Positions 23,048 to 33,874 of a stretch of DNA of 45,602 bases are shown one piece after another (positions within the stretch are counted from its first letter, which is position 1; every line of letters begins with the position of its first letter). Both the position numbers and the translations under genes were made by a program. The DNA is from a virus: positions 1 to 45,602 of IMG/VR virus record IMGVR_UViG_3300023240_001167. One strand, 5' to 3'. Below the pieces are notes generated by a model, which saw only the letters and a list, made by a program, of their open reading frames with translations, did not search any database and was not told where the DNA came from.

Positions 23048-23078
23048 CAATATACGAATTTATTTTCGATTATCCTAA
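23048..23078 (-). promoter_or_regulatory. Promoter P3 of the shared bipartite class, before gp45
   Basis: On the minus strand TTAGG (23078-23074), 19 bp, TATATTG (23054-23048), 21 nt before ATG 23026. The upstream box overlaps the stop codon of the PolB C-terminal gene. The leader is almost identical to that of P5 over about 35 bp. Confidence 0.75.
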
Positions 23079-23893
23079 TTAAAGTCGAAAAACTCTGCTG
23101 CTTTATCTAAGTTTGGGTTTGGTAAATCCCATTTCATTGCATCATAGAAATCATCTAATTTATTTTGAAGTTCTTTTTCCCAAATTAATTCGAAATCTAT
23201 GTAGGTTTTAATGAACTCAATTATTTCATCAGGATCATTATACCCATTCAATGCAACCCCATTCAATCCCAATGGATTATTCTTTAAATACACCCATTTA
23301 ACCTTATCACCATCTTTAATTGGTTCGTATTTAAAAGCAGTATTGAACTTTTTTAATAATTGATTATAAGTTATTGCTGCTTTAACGTGAGCGGGTGTTC
23401 CCTTTTGAAACTCACCAAGAGCTTGGTTTTTAAATAAATGCTTACTCATATCCGTAATTGCTGAATTCTTTGCAATATCAACATAGTAGTAATTTTCCAT
23501 ACCATCTTTATAATCTAATATCTTTTTATCGATGTTCAATTTCGCATCATCTTTTAGAATAGACCATAATATTTCAGACATCACTTCCTTAAAGTATACA
23601 GGAAATGAACTTCGTTTTACATCTAACCCCTTTACATCCAACTTATCACAATTAACAGAGTTATCATTTATAATCCACTGAGCGTATCGTTTTTTAGATA
23701 CCCAAAATCCACCCTTTGCGATTGTTTCTTGCTTTATGTCAAATCTATGGTTACTGGTATTAAACATGGATTTAGCCATCACATCATATGTTTTATTGAT
23801 GTGATCTTGCACTTCTTTTGCAACACTAAGAATGGCAGGTATCATTTCTTCATCAGAATTAACATCGATTTTAGGATTTCTAGCCTTAACCAA
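23075..23893 (-). CDS. 43: DNA polymerase B C-terminal half (thumb), C-extein of a fractured gene
   Basis: The frame has only a TTG start at 23893, but polymerase homology begins 30 bp earlier with TDSVFYEAAPL (ACT at 23923-23921), the catalytic motif C of family B polymerases. It then shows HRFDIKQETIAKGGFWVSKK followed by RYA, the KKRY motif, ITYNQLLKKFN, NPLGLNG, IDFELIWEKELQNKL and the terminal AAEFFDFN, which resembles the T4 gp43 clamp-binding tail. The 272 residues fit the thumb plus the end of the palm. Upstream there is no complete IntC in frame and no ATG, so how it is expressed or joined to the N-terminal half is unclear. Confidence 0.85.
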   Translation of the reverse strand: MVKARNPKIDVNSDEEMIPAILSVAKEVQDHINKTYDVMAKSMFNTSNHRFDIKQETIAKGGFWVSKKRYAQWIINDNSVNCDKLDVKGLDVKRSSFPVYFKEVMSEILWSILKDDAKLNIDKKILDYKDGMENYYYVDIAKNSAITDMSKHLFKNQALGEFQKGTPAHVKAAITYNQLLKKFNTAFKYEPIKDGDKVKWVYLKNNPLGLNGVALNGYNDPDEIIEFIKTYIDFELIWEKELQNKLDDFYDAMKWDLPNPNLDKAAEFFDFN

Positions 23894-23922
23894 TGGAGCT
23901 GCTTCATAAAATACTGAATCAG

Positions 23923-23988
23923 TTACGTGTCGACGTAGATGTTGTAATCTACGCCGACGTTTGTTTTTTTAATTGTTTTTATTTTCAT
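23923..23988 (-). pseudogene. Truncated intein C-terminal (IntC-like) fragment of PolB
   Basis: ATG 23988 overlaps the end of the endonuclease gene. The 21 codons read KIKTIKKT, then VDYNIYVDT, then TAA. This aligns with the start of the helicase IntC (EIESIE...IDITVEDT), but the following HxFFAN...HN segment with the catalytic Asn is absent. Five bases after GAC, in another frame, the PolB motif TDSVF begins. An alternative reading is that DYNIYVDT is polymerase sequence before DS with a 5-nt insertion (ACGTA). Either way the frame is broken. Confidence 0.5.
23929..23970 (+). terminator. Strong GC-rich hairpin with plus-strand U-run
   Basis: The plus strand has GTCGACGTAGAT (23929-23940), loop GTTGTA, ATCTACGCCGAC (23947-23958), then GTTTGTTTTTTT. 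The 12-bp stem has one G-T wobble. By form it is an intrinsic terminator for plus-strand transcripts, yet no plus-strand gene is present. On the minus strand it has an upstream A-run and no U-run. It coincides with the junction between the homing endonuclease and the PolB C-terminal half. Confidence 0.6.
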
Positions 23989-24796
23989 ATTTTGTTATAT
24001 TGCCCTTATAATCGATTCTTACAAACACACACTTTAATTTCGATATAATCAAGTTCATTCTCCATATATCTTTTGGATGCAATTCTCCGTTTCTAAAATG
24101 TCGTTGTTCATCATATTCAATCACTACATTATTTGATCTATCATACCCATCTACAAAAAACGTATTATCTGGTATTTGATACTCACCACCATTTTCAGCA
24201 TGCTGAAATGTATATCCATTATCCAACCCATACCGTTCTATAATTGGAATTGAATTTGGATTATATGAATGTGGCATCCCATTACGTTTTACACGCTCTA
24301 TTGCAGATACACTCATTCGTTTCAGTTCATCAGGTCTTTTTGATCTCTTATAGTTACCATTATCTTCACCATGTCTAGCTTTACGTTTAGATAACTGAAA
24401 ATTCATATCATCTGCCACATCTCTACCATACTTTTCAATCCAAATCTGATAATACGATGACCCATGATTACCATTCAACTCACCAAAACTACCTCTCTTT
24501 TTATTATACGCATTGAACTGATCCTCATCCCAACCACAAATATCACGTTTGTATTCAAATGTATTCGTATACGCCTGTTTTTGTTTATAATCTTCCCATC
24601 TAATATTACCTTGAACATCACCATGCCTTCGTATCATATTTTCTAATGAGTGAACTCCCCTCTGAATCATCCCATCTGATTGGATTGGTACATTGGGAAA
24701 TTTAGTTCGATAATCTGCCATACTAATACCATGTGTCTTTAAATGAGTTGCTGTGATGGTGTTATACTTCTTATTACATATTTTACATTCAATCAT
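23969..24796 (-). CDS. Homing endonuclease, MucR-type zinc finger plus Vsr/EDxHD-like nuclease
   Basis: A 275-residue protein. The N-terminus MIECKICNKKYNTITATHLK followed by THGISMADYRTKFP is a MucR/ROS-like zinc finger. The middle has RRHGDVQGNIRWEDYKQK, matching the G-x3-G-x3-W repeat of the other endonuclease here. The C-terminus FFVDGYDRSNNVVIEYDEQR, HPKDIWRMNLIISKLKCV and FVRIDY form a Vsr-like D...E-x-D...D fold. It sits between the two PolB halves, as free-standing endonucleases do in fractured genes with split inteins. Its own TATAAGTA element lies 23 nt upstream. Confidence 0.75.
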   Translation of the reverse strand: MIECKICNKKYNTITATHLKTHGISMADYRTKFPNVPIQSDGMIQRGVHSLENMIRRHGDVQGNIRWEDYKQKQAYTNTFEYKRDICGWDEDQFNAYNKKRGSFGELNGNHGSSYYQIWIEKYGRDVADDMNFQLSKRKARHGEDNGNYKRSKRPDELKRMSVSAIERVKRNGMPHSYNPNSIPIIERYGLDNGYTFQHAENGGEYQIPDNTFFVDGYDRSNNVVIEYDEQRHFRNGELHPKDIWRMNLIISKLKCVFVRIDYKGNITKYENKNN

Positions 24797-24819
24797 ACGT
24801 TGATACCCCCGTTTCTATA

Positions 24820-24827
24820 TATAAGTA
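24820..24827. promoter_or_regulatory. Candidate AT-rich promoter element (class 2) before a homing endonuclease
   Basis: TATAAGTA on the plus strand, 23 nt before ATG 24796, in the 38-bp gap after the PolB N-terminal stop. It would let the endonuclease be expressed separately from the polymerase. Confidence 0.35.
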
Positions 24828-24834
24828 GTATTAA

Positions 24835-26787
24835 TTATAATAAAACATCATCTTCTTCTGTTAATTCTGAAACTTTCTTTATCATTCCATTAGTTAACGT
24901 AACAGGTAGATTACCACCCATACTAACAGTTTCACCATTTTCTAATTGAATTACATAAGCATCGCCCGTTACACTATTATAATAATTATTAGCTATTAAC
25001 TCAGTGGTTTTAATTACAGTCTGCCCTGTAAGTGTTACCGCTTCCGCGTTTTTCACATTATAGAATCTAAATGACTCCAAACCAAGTACACCATAAAGGG
25101 AATTGAGCATAATCTTCTGCACGGATTGCCGTTGATTGTAAAATTTATACTTATCATCATCACCTGCTTTTCCGAACTTCTTCATCAAATCTTTATATTC
25201 AACTCTCTTGTCGAACCAAACATTCAAAATTTCAGGAATTATACCAACTTTACTTTGGTCGTATAATGTACCATTAGCAGCTACACTTAGATTCATCTTT
25301 GTAATGAATGCATCATACTCAACCCTATCCATCGGATCTGATATATTACCATGAATATCTGTTATTTCAAACTTAGAAATATCATGCCGCATATAAGCCT
25401 CTGTGGAATAATTTGTTATATTACCCACTTGAGTTTCGGGTGATATGTTAATAGTCATAATGATACAGGGATATATTGATGTTAAATCTAAATCATATAC
25501 CCATTTATATAGTCCTGGTTTTGGTTCTTTTACATAAGCCCCCTCAAAATCAAGTTTAAGTATCCATTCTTTTTTTAAGGTTTCCTTTAATGGGTGCTTC
25601 AATATAAATGAATTGGTAGAGAAATCAATATCATCATACTCTACTGATATCTTAGATGATTTCGATTTCCAAATCTTTAGTTTCCCTGATCGGGGTGTTA
25701 GATTCGGTAAATTCTCTAAATAGATTCGATTTTCACCTTTTTTACCTGAGTTTATCTTTAGTGAAACTCTATTGGGTTTATTCGGTGCAACCCTACCACT
25801 TCTACGTAGAAATGTGAGCATAGCCCCCTCTAACCACTTTGAAGAGAAAAGAAAATCCTCATAAGCAACATGGCCTGTGTGGCATATTGCCCTTGCCAAA
25901 TCAATAAACTGTAACTTCTTATCTAAATCAACAACCAACTCAACATCGACTAGGTTATATTCAATAAACTTTTCAATATCATCTCTGAATAATTGATCTA
26001 AGTTACCATCATATTCAATCTTACCACGACCTAACTCTAAAGTTGCTATAGTATCAAGTCTATAATTCGGGTGTTCTGTGTATGTGAAGTTTTTAAACAA
26101 TGCCATATAATCTAAACAAGATACACCTGCTATAAGGTAACGTTTTCTATATTTATTATACTTTATTTTACCAATTGGTGACAATCTGTTAGCCTCAGTC
26201 GTTGAGAATACATTACACAATCGGTTGTAAAGATATGTAACATCAAAGTAATCAATATTCCAACCCGTCACTATTGTTGGCGATATATCTACCCATTTAT
26301 TTAAAAATGCAGATAGCATATCAGCCTCAGTGTTAAAGGATTTTACATTAGCACCTTTTATTTTCCTATCAATTTCTTTACCCGTATGAACTACATAAAC
26401 ACCTTTGTCATTTGTTATAGAATCGTGAAATGCTATTGCAGTTACTTCATTTTCAGCTTTAGTGGTATCGGGTAAACCTGAATTCATTTCTACCTCAATA
26501 TCAAATGTAAGTGTACAATGATTTTTAGATACTTCATCAGATTCCCCATACTTATCTATTAGAAATCTAGTAATTTCATTTACATCAGATTCAAATAGAT
26601 CATTAGGATTGTAATCTTTCCAATAGGTTACTTTCTTAACCCTATCACCATATATTGAAGTATGCGCACCATTACCATCTCTTACGTATGCATATGGTGA
26701 ATACTTACTCGTTTCGTAACCAAGAACATCATCCCATGAATGAATTATTCTAGTATCACTATCATAAAATACGTTCTGATATGCCAT
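24835..26787 (-). CDS. 43: DNA polymerase B N-terminal half with intein-like tail (T4 gp43)
   Basis: 650 residues. Exonuclease motifs are TFDIEVE (residues 94-100), GWNIDYFD (175-182) and YNLVDVELVVDL (277-288). Polymerase motif A is YDLDLTSIYP (431-440) and motif B is QKIMLNSLYG (557-566). After IANNYYNSVTGDAYVI the polymerase sequence ends without motif C. The last 37 residues, LENGETVSMGGNLPVTLTNG then KKVSELTEEDDVLL, resemble the block B end of split-intein N-fragments (compare HPVYTKN...ADELTDDDELV in NrdJ-1). The intein's first block with Cys1, and the block B His, are missing. PolB alone cannot be active without the half at 23075-23923. Confidence 0.9.
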   Translation of the reverse strand: MAYQNVFYDSDTRIIHSWDDVLGYETSKYSPYAYVRDGNGAHTSIYGDRVKKVTYWKDYNPNDLFESDVNEITRFLIDKYGESDEVSKNHCTLTFDIEVEMNSGLPDTTKAENEVTAIAFHDSITNDKGVYVVHTGKEIDRKIKGANVKSFNTEADMLSAFLNKWVDISPTIVTGWNIDYFDVTYLYNRLCNVFSTTEANRLSPIGKIKYNKYRKRYLIAGVSCLDYMALFKNFTYTEHPNYRLDTIATLELGRGKIEYDGNLDQLFRDDIEKFIEYNLVDVELVVDLDKKLQFIDLARAICHTGHVAYEDFLFSSKWLEGAMLTFLRRSGRVAPNKPNRVSLKINSGKKGENRIYLENLPNLTPRSGKLKIWKSKSSKISVEYDDIDFSTNSFILKHPLKETLKKEWILKLDFEGAYVKEPKPGLYKWVYDLDLTSIYPCIIMTINISPETQVGNITNYSTEAYMRHDISKFEITDIHGNISDPMDRVEYDAFITKMNLSVAANGTLYDQSKVGIIPEILNVWFDKRVEYKDLMKKFGKAGDDDKYKFYNQRQSVQKIMLNSLYGVLGLESFRFYNVKNAEAVTLTGQTVIKTTELIANNYYNSVTGDAYVIQLENGETVSMGGNLPVTLTNGMIKKVSELTEEDDVLL

Positions 26788-30965: not shown

Positions 30966-31436
30966 TTAAAAGTTAACTTTGTTGTTAATTTCTTTATACT
31001 TTTGAAATAAATTCTGTCTAACAAAAGTCTCCCCCTCTTTCATATCTTTTTTTGTATTTTGACCATCAACTGAATTATCTGAAAATATCTCTATTTTACC
31101 GCTGGACATATTAGCTTTGGATGGTAATGTAGTACCATCGGGCCCGAAACGGTTCTTTATAACATGCCATCGACCCGTACCTGCTAACTTATCTTCAATT
31201 TTTCTACTCAGTGAAACTACAAAATCAGCAGTCATAAGTTTTGAGAATGAACCTGCTATTTTGGTACCTGTAATAATATCATCATCTGCGCCTGAATTAT
31301 GACTATATACCCCATTAGCGAAGAACATATGTGTATCCTCTACGGTAATATCAATAGTATCTGAATCGCCGATTAGCTCAATACTCTCAATTTCGACCAA
31401 ATCAAAATCATCTGGATTTAAATTATGTTTATTCAT
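30966..31436 (-). CDS. 41: Split intein IntC plus helicase gp41 C-terminal half
   Basis: A 156-residue protein. Residues 1-47 are an intein C-fragment: LVEIESIELIGDSDTIDI, then TVEDTHMFFANGVYSHN, ending in the His-Asn required for C-terminal cleavage. The next residue is Ser, the +1 nucleophile. Residues 48-156 are the helicase C-extein (SGADDDIITGTKIAGSFSKL, TADFVVSLSRKIEDK, WHVIKNRFGPDG), matching the end of T4 gp41/DnaB. Trans-splicing with the product of 32564-33874 should give a helicase of about 452 residues. Its ATG overlaps the endonuclease stop by 8 bp. Confidence 0.92.
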   Translation of the reverse strand: MNKHNLNPDDFDLVEIESIELIGDSDTIDITVEDTHMFFANGVYSHNSGADDDIITGTKIAGSFSKLMTADFVVSLSRKIEDKLAGTGRWHVIKNRFGPDGTTLPSKANMSSGKIEIFSDNSVDGQNTKKDMKEGETFVRQNLFQKYKEINNKVNF

Positions 31437-32520
31437 TTTCTAAAAACTTTTTACATTTGTTTATGATATCACTCCCATTCGCATTATACTCCGATTCCCA
31501 TACAACTAAGACATCATAACCAGCTTTTTCTAATAAATCAATTCTATTGGAATCACGATGCCATATTTCACTAGCGGTATATTCCTTTATCATATCAGAT
31601 TCACTATACAGATTAGGATTTGCATGCCAATAATCACCATTGAATTCTATAATCTTTTGTTTATACTTAAAATCAACCTTAATCAACTTATTACCAAAGT
31701 AGAATGATTGTTCATTATTTAATTCATAAAATTGTGTATCATTTATTGATAAATTTAGCGAATCATACAAATTCCAACAGAATGTCTGTGATATCTTACT
31801 ATAACTTTTATATCCATACTTTGTTACCACCTCAACCCATTTTAAATATTTAACTAACCCAACTTCTTTACCATATCGTTTTGTAAATGATGATAACGAT
31901 GTATTATTCTGATACTCTGATAACGATTGCGTTGCTAACTCAATATCACCATTATGGTACGTTAACCAATAATCAATACACCTCTTTGATGCGTTCTTCA
32001 TCAGTTCAACGTGCTTATTATAATGAACTAAACCATCTACATCACCGTATTGAATTTGATACGCCTCTAAAGATGTGTTATCTTTTATCTTTCTTATTAT
32101 ATCATACCCATCTTCACCAAATTCATCCAAATAACGTTGAGTTGATGCCATATAGGATTGATGCTTATTCCGTTTATCCCACCTACTGTAACCATCCGCT
32201 ACCCCGTATCTAAGTTGATATGATTCTAAGGTTCTACCATTATTCCATTTTTTGTTTTTAAAATTAACAGATTGTGTTTTTAACTTGGTTTTTAATCTAT
32301 CATTCCACTTAACAGCACCATCAACTTTTCCATATTTGGCAATACACCCTTTTAATGAAAATGTATTTTTCTTCTTTGCTAACGATTCAACGTAATCATT
32401 ACCGTGTTTCGTTCTCAATTCATCATGTGTTTTACCATATTTCTTTTTTTGTATTTCCCACATACGAAGACCTTCCCCTTCTCCGTATCTAGTTATCCAA
32501 GCTTGCTTTACTGATGCCAT
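31429..32520 (-). CDS. Free-standing homing endonuclease (Vsr/EDxHD-like) inside the fractured helicase gene
   Basis: A 363-residue protein. The first 240 residues hold about five repeats of the type YG-x2-x-G-x3-W/Y: RYGEGEGLRMW, KYGKVDGAVKW, RYGVADGYSRW, QYGDVDGLVHY and RYGKEVGLVKY, probably DNA-recognition modules. The C-terminal 110 residues are Vsr-like: KVDFKYKQKIIEFNGDYWHA, then IWHRDSNRIDLLEKAGYDVL and VVWESEY, giving the D...E...H...D active-site pattern. The gene lies between the two split-intein helicase halves, the arrangement called a fractured gene. It is expected to cut intein-free helicase alleles and spread the insertion. Confidence 0.88.
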   Translation of the reverse strand: MASVKQAWITRYGEGEGLRMWEIQKKKYGKTHDELRTKHGNDYVESLAKKKNTFSLKGCIAKYGKVDGAVKWNDRLKTKLKTQSVNFKNKKWNNGRTLESYQLRYGVADGYSRWDKRNKHQSYMASTQRYLDEFGEDGYDIIRKIKDNTSLEAYQIQYGDVDGLVHYNKHVELMKNASKRCIDYWLTYHNGDIELATQSLSEYQNNTSLSSFTKRYGKEVGLVKYLKWVEVVTKYGYKSYSKISQTFCWNLYDSLNLSINDTQFYELNNEQSFYFGNKLIKVDFKYKQKIIEFNGDYWHANPNLYSESDMIKEYTASEIWHRDSNRIDLLEKAGYDVLVVWESEYNANGSDIINKCKKFLENE

Positions 32521-32535
32521 ATTATATCCTTTTTA

Positions 32536-32543
32536 TATAAGTA
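32536..32543. promoter_or_regulatory. Candidate AT-rich promoter element (class 2) before a homing endonuclease
   Basis: TATAAGTA on the plus strand, 15 nt before ATG 32520 in the 43-bp gap between helicase N-half and endonuclease. The same element precedes the other endonuclease at a similar distance. Confidence 0.35.
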
Positions 32544-32563
32544 TATAACTGCATGGCAAAACC

Positions 32564-33874
32564 TTACTTTTTTCCACTCTTTTTTACAAATAATTTCTCA
32601 CCTACTGAAAGTCCATCTGCTATGGATTTTATTTTGTTGTATTGGGTTGGTATCATATGTTCTGCTGAAACATTTATCTCTCTACCATCTTTAAGCTTAA
32701 TACGATAGGTTGGTTGTCGTTCAATTGGGAATACATTTGTTATTTTCTTAAATCCCTTATGTGTTAATATTTGGTCTCCAATCTCCACATCACCAATCCT
32801 TTTATCACCAGTTGGAGTTTCCACGTTATCATTTACATTATGACAACGATTTATTTGAGATGCTGTATATAATGGTACTTCATACTCCCCTGCCAAACCT
32901 CTAAGTTCCTCAACTACTTCTTCAATTTCTTCATGCTTCTCTCGCTTCGAATTGCCTTTAAGTAAATCTGCATAATCAACTATAATGATATCAGGCTTCT
33001 TTCCTTGTAATATGAGCTTATCAACCGATGCCCTTACGGAATTAACGGATGCTGATTTTGTGGGCCAATATTTTATTATAAGCTCACCTGATAATTCTTT
33101 AATACTAGATTTAACATCATCTATGTTATATTTCAAATTAGTAACTGCCATATTAGTTAACACAGCATCATATCTCTGACCAACATATCCCTCGTTTAAC
33201 TCTAAAGTATAATGTACCACCGTTTTTCCAGCTCTGACAGCAGCCATACCCACATTAATAAGAGCCCATGATTTACCAATTCCTGGCGGTGCTGCGAAGA
33301 TAATTAATTCACCTTTTCCGAAACCACCATCTACTAATTCATCAATTGCAGGCCATCCTGTTGTAATTACATTCCTAACACTATCGGCATAACGTTCATC
33401 AATACTAATATTATACTCATGCCCGATATCAGTATCCTGCCCAGCCTTCATAGCTGCGGTTATTTTAGATTGAATTTCTTCGTAGTTACCACTCTCAAGC
33501 AAACCTACCGATTCAAGGATAGCATTTTTAACTTCCTGATTCTTACAAAACTCTAGTGATTGCTCTTTTATGTATTCTAACTCAGTGGATTCTAATCCAC
33601 CCCATACATTTCTAAGGTTATCTGATACAGATTGTCTTAGAATATCAGAACTAAGTGCATCTGATTCCGTTTTAAATACATCTAAGGTTGGTATTTGTTT
33701 GTATTTATCAAAGTGGGTTAATATTTTACTTAAAATCCATTGATTTGCATCAGAATCGAAATAATCATCTTTTATAATATCATAAATAGTCTGTAAAAAT
33801 ATCCTATCTGATAATAATGCTGATAGAATTTTTATTTGGAAACTTGAACCAAATCTCTTTCCGAATGTATCCAT
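32564..33874 (-). CDS. 41: Helicase gp41 N-terminal half plus split intein IntN
   Basis: A 436-residue protein. Residues 1-343 are a DnaB/gp41 replicative helicase: Walker A is FAAPPGIGKSWALINVG (193-209), Walker B is PDIIIVDYADLL (294-305), and motif H3 is LYTASQINR (335-343). At residue 344 a Cys starts a 93-residue intein N-fragment: CHNVNDNVETPTGDKRIGDV, EIGDQILTHKGFKKITNVFP, INVSAEHMIPT (block B His) and the end GEKLFVKKSGKK. The site NR/SG equals, as I recall, that of the known gp41-8 split intein. Promoter P4 lies 36 nt upstream. Confidence 0.93.
   Translation of the reverse strand: MDTFGKRFGSSFQIKILSALLSDRIFLQTIYDIIKDDYFDSDANQWILSKILTHFDKYKQIPTLDVFKTESDALSSDILRQSVSDNLRNVWGGLESTELEYIKEQSLEFCKNQEVKNAILESVGLLESGNYEEIQSKITAAMKAGQDTDIGHEYNISIDERYADSVRNVITTGWPAIDELVDGGFGKGELIIFAAPPGIGKSWALINVGMAAVRAGKTVVHYTLELNEGYVGQRYDAVLTNMAVTNLKYNIDDVKSSIKELSGELIIKYWPTKSASVNSVRASVDKLILQGKKPDIIIVDYADLLKGNSKREKHEEIEEVVEELRGLAGEYEVPLYTASQINRCHNVNDNVETPTGDKRIGDVEIGDQILTHKGFKKITNVFPIERQPTYRIKLKDGREINVSAEHMIPTQYNKIKSIADGLSVGEKLFVKKSGKK

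Follow-up and report, generated by a model that had tools for sequence, protein, structure and literature searches.

A candidate translational bypass element within motif C of split phage DNA polymerase genes

The window analyzed here is a 45,602-base virus record (IMG/VR record IMGVR_UViG_3300023240_001167), the whole stretch of DNA under study. Its family B DNA polymerase gene, polB, lies in two open reading frames (ORFs), both on the minus strand, with an N-half at 26787-24835 and a C-half ending at 23075. Ahead of the C-half lies a short leader ORF that carries the first half of catalytic motif C and is parted from the rest of the motif by a stop codon and a five-nucleotide (5-nt) gap. We propose that ribosomes probably cross this gap in the C-half mRNA by programmed translational bypassing, which would yield a two-subunit polymerase. 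The same layout recurs in ten further junctions, together with a hairpin whose arms covary.

The junction inside motif C

The features of the split gene and its junction are as follows.

24835..26787, minus strand: polB N-half ORF, 650 amino acids (aa), comprising exonuclease, palm 1 and fingers; stops short of motif C
23923..23988, minus strand: leader ORF, MKIKTIKKTNVGVDYNIYVDT-stop, the proposed N-terminus of the C-half, carrying the first half of motif C
23947..23958, minus strand: hairpin left arm, GTCGGCGTAGAT
23929..23940, minus strand: hairpin right arm, ATCTACGTCGAC (codons I-Y-V-D), abutting the takeoff codon
23926..23928, minus strand: proposed takeoff codon ACG (Thr)
23921..23925, minus strand: 5-nt gap TAACT, with the stop TAA at 23925-23923 and the proposed landing codon ACT at 23923-23921
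23075..23920, minus strand: polB C-half from GAT TCA (DSVF...), comprising the remaining palm and the thumb

A first-pass annotation of this DNA had described polB as two ORFs broken just before TDS, and the ORFs and profile matches bear this out. Both halves match family B polymerases (PF00136 and PF03104 in Pfam, phrog_262 in PHROGs), and they cover adjoining parts of the models. The predicted structure of the N-half aligns with RB69 gp43 over 485 residues (Z 43.5, root-mean-square deviation 2.4), and on this modeling the window polymerase is a T4-type family B enzyme with the RB69 gp43 fold.

The leader, MKIKTIKKTNVGVDYNIYVDT, starts with ATG and is coding from 23988 to 23926 on the minus strand. 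At its end the window reads GAC ACG TAACT GAT TCA, so that five extra bases, out of frame, split DT from DS. Unbroken relatives read DYNIYVDTDSVF or DYNVYTDTDSVF through motif C, and the unbroken loci recovered by searching with the C-half read ...IANQYYSKNIGETKDYNIYVDTDSVFYEA across the junction; the window leader therefore holds the polymerase's own motif-C strand. VDYNIYVDT had earlier been taken for the start of a C-terminal intein fragment (IntC) lost just before TDS. It is instead the motif-C strand seen in unbroken relatives, and the break is a 5-nt out-of-frame gap between DT and DS. The two small deletions proposed to flank it (from Y-V-I to Y-V-I, and from VDT to TDS) likewise find no support. 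A second locus, L060, whose C-half is 72% identical to that of the window, reads GAT ACG TGACA GAT TCT. Its endonuclease-like gene differs from the window's, and its tail and leader are of the same kind.

Recurrence of the gap and of a covarying stem

Loci were gathered from IMG/VR by a C-half search (the best 80 of 137 loci were used), by further C-half alignment searches that added at least 160 loci, and by pattern scans that returned 4 stretches, then 17, then 1 already known. All 17 stretches of the second scan were polB junctions with a leader; neither this pattern nor that of the first scan asked for a leader or a stem. Classification of 260 loci gave 180 distinct in-frame junctions and 11 broken ones, alongside 65 duplicates and 4 loci that were too short. 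Among the in-frame junctions, 174 are continuous into the N-half, 3 run off the contig end and 3 have a nearby stop; in L058, a single stop lies within otherwise continuous sequence.

Every one of the 11 broken junctions has a leader, a Thr codon, a stop and resumption at GAY. The gap is 5 nt long in ten of them and 6 nt in L214, which reads ACG TAA ATG GAT and is present in two contigs; several of the 11 turn up in two or more contigs. If the tRNA re-pairs at the codon preceding GAY, every one of them reads D-T-D-S, whichever the gap length, and a stop (TAA or TGA) stands directly 3' of the takeoff codon throughout. The window, L060 and L214 were first met in C-half protein searches that were blind to the junction, and for these three the stop was not required by the search; the other eight were found by pattern. 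Taken alone, the protein searches (240 loci) yield seven distinct broken junctions, all seven of this kind, although four of these were already known by pattern and their C-halves were among the queries. When the collected loci (4.73 million strand-bases, duplicates included) were scanned independently of polB for a stem, a stop and a matched landing codon across a gap of 4-11, the 11 distinct hits comprised 8 polB junctions, all with a gap of 5, and 3 weak others with a gap of 11. A pattern scan of cellular genomes gave two matches, in an unrelated gene that is ankyrin-like by eye.

A hairpin, missed in the first-pass annotation, lies directly against the takeoff codon. In the window it spans 23958-23929, with 12 base pairs (bp), no mismatch and one G-U pair; it adjoins the Thr codon, and its folding energy is -18.7 kcal/mol (z -7.1). 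In 10 of the 11 gap loci the 3' arm of the stem runs right up to the takeoff codon, and L092 is one base off. Stem scores reach at least 8.5 in 10 of 11, compared with 8.0 for the best of 176 in-frame controls. Folding z scores for six gap loci were -7.1, -5.8, -7.0, -3.3, -4.4 and -4.9, and for the controls L230, L257 and L080 they were -1.5, 0.2 and -0.2. Pairing is possible in 96.7% of cells over the 10 distinct arm pairs, versus at most 44.4% when the arms are slid, and 5 of the 12 stem pairs have changed on both sides. A final C is found at the four right-arm codons in 9, 11, 10 and 7 of the 11 gap loci, versus 29, 79, 39 and 5 of the 176 controls. That gap and stem occur together supports a role for the stem in decoding. 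In the leaders of L092 and L094, AGGAGG was also seen just 5' of the stem; with the L094 stem looped out, this motif would lie some 9 bases from the takeoff codon.

Some polB genes are split without a gap. L230 and L257, the other two in-frame junctions with a nearby stop, are of this sort; their leaders, MIIKKIERVEVPVEKLEQSDWNIYID and MKIKKIYRDTIVTDASGQVDSNIYID, read in frame into TDS, and nothing comparable to the stem stands at either junction (scores 4.0 and 3.0). A structure prediction of the L230 C-half with its leader was uninformative for the leader, whose predicted local distance difference test score (pLDDT) was below 50. In the large phage LR756508, polB is similarly split and gap-free, and a leader (MKTKKIKNI...EYCVYTD) is continuous in frame with a cis intein, whose last residues, VVHN, directly precede TDSVF. 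This intein matches NCBIfam intein_Cterm above the cut-off at residues 317-340. Judging from the reading frame, the C-half chain of these three loci begins with the leader; a chain of the same kind would result from a hop in the gap loci. The first-pass remark that an intein directly before TDS would differ from the classic DTD/S site was apt, as the LR756508 intein sits at just that position. The large-phage polB at L089:3998-7051 and L267:484-2349 (LR756508) also has, in its N-half, an intein near motif B (intein_Nterm, E 0.002, below the cut-off), as well as an N-half tail.

The C-halves are under purifying selection. The ratio of nonsynonymous to synonymous differences (pN/pS) was 0.08-0.37 in the nine comparisons in which a gap locus took part; two pairs of unbroken loci gave 0.08 and 0.19. 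Silent sites are near saturation in several of these comparisons. In a tree of 184 rows, built with the method 'quick' and containing some long branches, the 12 split rows (10 with the gap, 2 without) require 9 changes, compared with 11.8 on average after shuffling; at least 6 of the 9 fall on well-supported branches, and some split loci adjoin unbroken relatives (for example, L087 beside L080). The split loci are, on this tree, somewhat clustered and do not form one clade. It seems that the split or the element was gained repeatedly, moved between phages, or was lost repeatedly, and the element looks transferable.

Proposed bypassing and its alternatives

The leader and the C-half are, at the level of sequence, two ORFs parted by a stop and a gap of 5 or 6 nt. 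Comparison of loci establishes this anatomy, its recurrence, the covariation of the stem, the selection and the in-frame counterparts; a hop, a part for the stem in it, and assembly of the two halves we infer. On the proposed route, polB was split into two cistrons at a loop just before motif C, and translation of the C-half would start at the leader's own ATG, giving MKIKTIKKTNVGVDYNIYVDT. With the Thr codon ACG decoded, the stop codon would enter the A site; peptidyl-tRNA-Thr would leave ACG and re-pair on ACT 5 nt downstream, so that the stop is skipped. Decoding would resume at GAT, giving ...YVDT-DSVF with motif C exactly restored, and the two halves would assemble as a working two-subunit T4-type polymerase. 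Hops of +5 and +6 have reportedly been part of synthetic stop-hop work. Since the 3' arm of the 12-bp stem stands directly against the takeoff codon, the arm would lie inside the ribosome while that codon is in the P site, and once the stem closed completely it would draw the mRNA forward, an action also proposed for the 5' stem-loop in T4 gene 60. The first-pass annotation had allowed for an unusual joining mechanism, which was right in spirit; it is apparently the ribosome, working within the C-half mRNA, that does the joining, and not protein splicing. With somewhat less confidence than we hold for bypassing itself, we favor the fuller view that these are miniature, horizontally moving bypass elements in which a covarying stem behind the ribosome drives a 5- or 6-nt hop over a stop.

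Several observations weigh against bypassing. Eight of the 11 gap junctions were found by pattern, and among these the agreement in Thr takeoff, stop and gap arises by construction. Takeoff and landing codons are fully identical in only 3 of the 10 distinct junctions; the first two bases match in 9 of 10, which is partly expected, as both codons encode the Thr of DT and TDS. In L214, the landing codon for ACG would be ATG, pairing only through a middle G-U, and this ATG could serve as a start codon. At 6.5 under the one-mismatch rule, the L086 stem falls short of the best control, though it folds as a long interrupted helix of -26.3 kcal/mol. The stem also overlaps coding constraint, and a lysine-rich leader is present in the gap-free split relatives too. 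Finally, no gap-carrying isolate was found among the best 30 of 2554, 40 of 2047 and 25 of 861 records, and in the nearest named phage among the matches listed, Microcystis phage Mel-JY01, polB is unsplit.

The alternative that survives best, termination at the stop followed by re-initiation, is unlikely. It would release the leader as a small peptide, start the C-half at a codon overlapping the stop and leave a polymerase of three polypeptides. In its favor are the ATG directly after the stop in L214 and the GTG of L087 and TTG of L092 in the TDS frame. In the other 8 of 11 gap junctions, however, no ATG, GTG or TTG lies in frame between the last stop and TDS, and initiation at the next available start, 5 to 26 codons further on, would lose the catalytic DS. 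Re-initiation is also at odds with L230 and L257, where leader and C-half form one chain, and it leaves the stem unexplained.

Two further routes we hold equally improbable and less credible than re-initiation. Ordinary ribosomal frameshifting at the stop, by -1 or +2, would in either case bring the ten loci with a 5-nt gap into the TDS frame, but it would insert residues inside DTDS, inspection of the sequences showed no slippery heptamer at the stop, and the 6-nt locus L214, which needs no frame change, would be ruined. Removal of the gap from the RNA, as an intron or by hairpin-guided cutting and ligation, could draw on the conserved hairpin at the junction. Against this, no more than 5 or 6 nt would have to be removed, and a search of 23600-25200 against Rfam returned no family at E up to 1, and hence no group I intron or other known RNA.

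Trans-splicing of the polB halves by a degenerate split intein is very improbable. Fractured genes with split inteins have the halves of a replication gene arranged around an endonuclease gene, and the window itself contains one: at 30966-33874 on the minus strand, a DnaB-type helicase gene whose halves, separated by an endonuclease-like gene, carry the parts of a canonical split intein. Its N-terminal fragment (IntN) has Cys1 and its IntC ends in HN before S, and both were found by the same kind of profile search. The polB flanks differ in having no intein ends: neither a Cys or Ser at position 1 of block A, nor the block B His, nor a C-terminal HN is present, and the supposed IntC end is polymerase sequence. 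What resembles an intein is the end of the N-half.

24838..24960, minus strand: 41-codon non-polymerase tail (AYVIQLENG...DDVLL), a small predicted beta unit

Within the N-half model this tail has a pLDDT of 77-85 and four short strands. Similar tails occur in all 15 of the pattern-found loci in which the N-half end is included, as well as in L214 and L230; in the 174 continuous relatives, motif B and TDS are only 52 or 53 residues apart and no tail is present. The alignment with RB69 gp43 reaches residue 602-606 of the N-half model in the best rows, yet some rows run over the tail to residue 650, and part of the tail may overlay polymerase strands. The pattern YxIxLENGxxxxxGxN resembles IntN block B by eye, so that the tail may have a remote intein origin. 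No intein family was matched by ten tails in Pfam, in a search of PDB sequences, or by the N-half and leader in NCBIfam; hhalign of the tail with the window's DnaB IntN gave 21 columns at 5% probability, and a search with a two-row tail alignment returned only the two known loci. The tail had previously been read as a degenerate intein end. Its description as non-polymerase sequence without a Cys stands, while its intein origin has no profile support.

Least probable of all is a decaying gene or an assembly or sequencing error: the stop and frame break within a catalytic motif suggest it, but eleven broken junctions share one layout where random break positions would have been expected, several of them in multiple contigs, and the C-halves are under purifying selection. 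The same observations contradict both the dying gene and the assembly collapse that the first-pass annotation had entertained. It had also named an intact polB elsewhere in the genome as a finding that would refute it; no further PF00136 match occurs in the window or in a 174,750-base contig with an identical locus. Each of the ten gap-carrying contigs, that one included, has two PF00136 matches, corresponding to the two halves of the model, and no second polB was found in these ten, which may be fragments. That no other polB turned up in the searched records, whose completeness is uncertain, also counts against decay.

Known systems and genes between the halves

The closest likeness is the T4 gene 39 / mobA / gene 60 region with its 50-nt translational bypass (PMC5009743, PMC3014915, PMC11194080). 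Both are replication genes split by a homing endonuclease gene (in polB a probable one) with unsplit relatives, and both have a coding gap near the start of the downstream cistron, a stop directly after takeoff and a stem-loop 5' of takeoff, whose completion has been modeled as a motor in T4 (PMC5009743). The takeoff and landing codons, matched in T4, agree in part in polB. Unlike gene 60, the polB element lies in a DNA polymerase rather than a topoisomerase gene, would take off from Thr rather than Gly, and has a gap of 5 or 6 nt rather than 50, with no room for a takeoff stem-loop within it. The lysine-rich leader is only a candidate for a nascent-peptide signal, and the element occurs at 11 junctions scattered through a polymerase family. 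In the mitochondrial byps of Magnusiomyces, short blocks are skipped in translation at many places, seemingly independent of mRNA context (PMC5009743, PMC11194080); those involve a mitochondrial ribosome and many genes, whereas the polB element is confined to one gene site with a covarying stem. The terminase gene of Streptomyces phage Hau3, another phage gene with a short coding gap, is a likely case of bypassing with an SD-like (Shine-Dalgarno-like) sequence and a UUA codon (PMC5009743), and synthetic stop hops share the matched codons around a stop but are artificial constructs (PMC5009743). T4-type polymerases in two cistrons (split gene 43, 43A/43B) are known from Aeromonas phages 25 and 44RR. 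The two halves from phage 25 are reported to co-purify with activity (PMC2988022), and in 44RR the split lies ~110 residues before motif C, with DTDS in frame (44RR record).

The bypassing cases named in a 2024 paper are T4 gene 60 and yeast mitochondria (PMC11194080), and shorter-distance counterparts had long been presumed according to a 2016 review (PMC5009743). As a weak negative, we found no report in print of bypassing in phage polymerases in the open-licence PMC literature. If our reading is true, polB would add a natural bypass system with many natural variants, a translational intron at a site also used by an intein. With ten distinct variants of a minimal element occurring naturally in an essential enzyme, and gap-free relatives as natural controls, it can be tested which parts bypassing needs (matched codons, stop, 5' stem or nascent peptide), and whether the gap protects a favored homing site. 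Gene finders may call such polymerases broken. The gap of T4 gene 60 has been suggested to protect against endonuclease (PMC5009743). The intein between D and TDS in LR756508 indicates that the motif-C spot is a homing site in a relative, and by analogy the polB element may protect this site against homing elements.

One further gene lies between the polB halves of the window.

23969..24796, minus strand: 275-aa ORF with a zinc-finger-like N-terminus, probably a free-standing homing endonuclease

This ORF had no convincing family in Pfam, NCBIfam or PDB sequences, and its PHROG match is of unknown function. It may be an EDxHD/Vsr-like endonuclease. A similar ORF is found at the same site in L093/L098, and in L060 the site is occupied by a NUMOD3/GIY-YIG-like gene. 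Endonuclease-like ORFs lie between the halves in the window, L060, L093, L098 and others, but in neither L091 nor L094, where only 75 and 72 bases, respectively, separate the N-half stop from the matched pattern and no ORF of at least 29 codons occurs. An endonuclease gene in place is therefore not needed to keep the element. At 23969-23988 (minus strand) of the window, the endonuclease-like ORF and the C-half leader share 20 bases, the end of the one and the start of the other, which suggests translational coupling. No tRNA genes were found in the window. Elsewhere, the N-half in L230:1-2287 is fractured again by a gene that is HNH-like by eye, so that the polymerase would be in three pieces, and the 9,058-base L086 packs four related endonuclease-like genes with a common block, HAENGGE..IKELGY.VDGYSK.KN, into one short contig.

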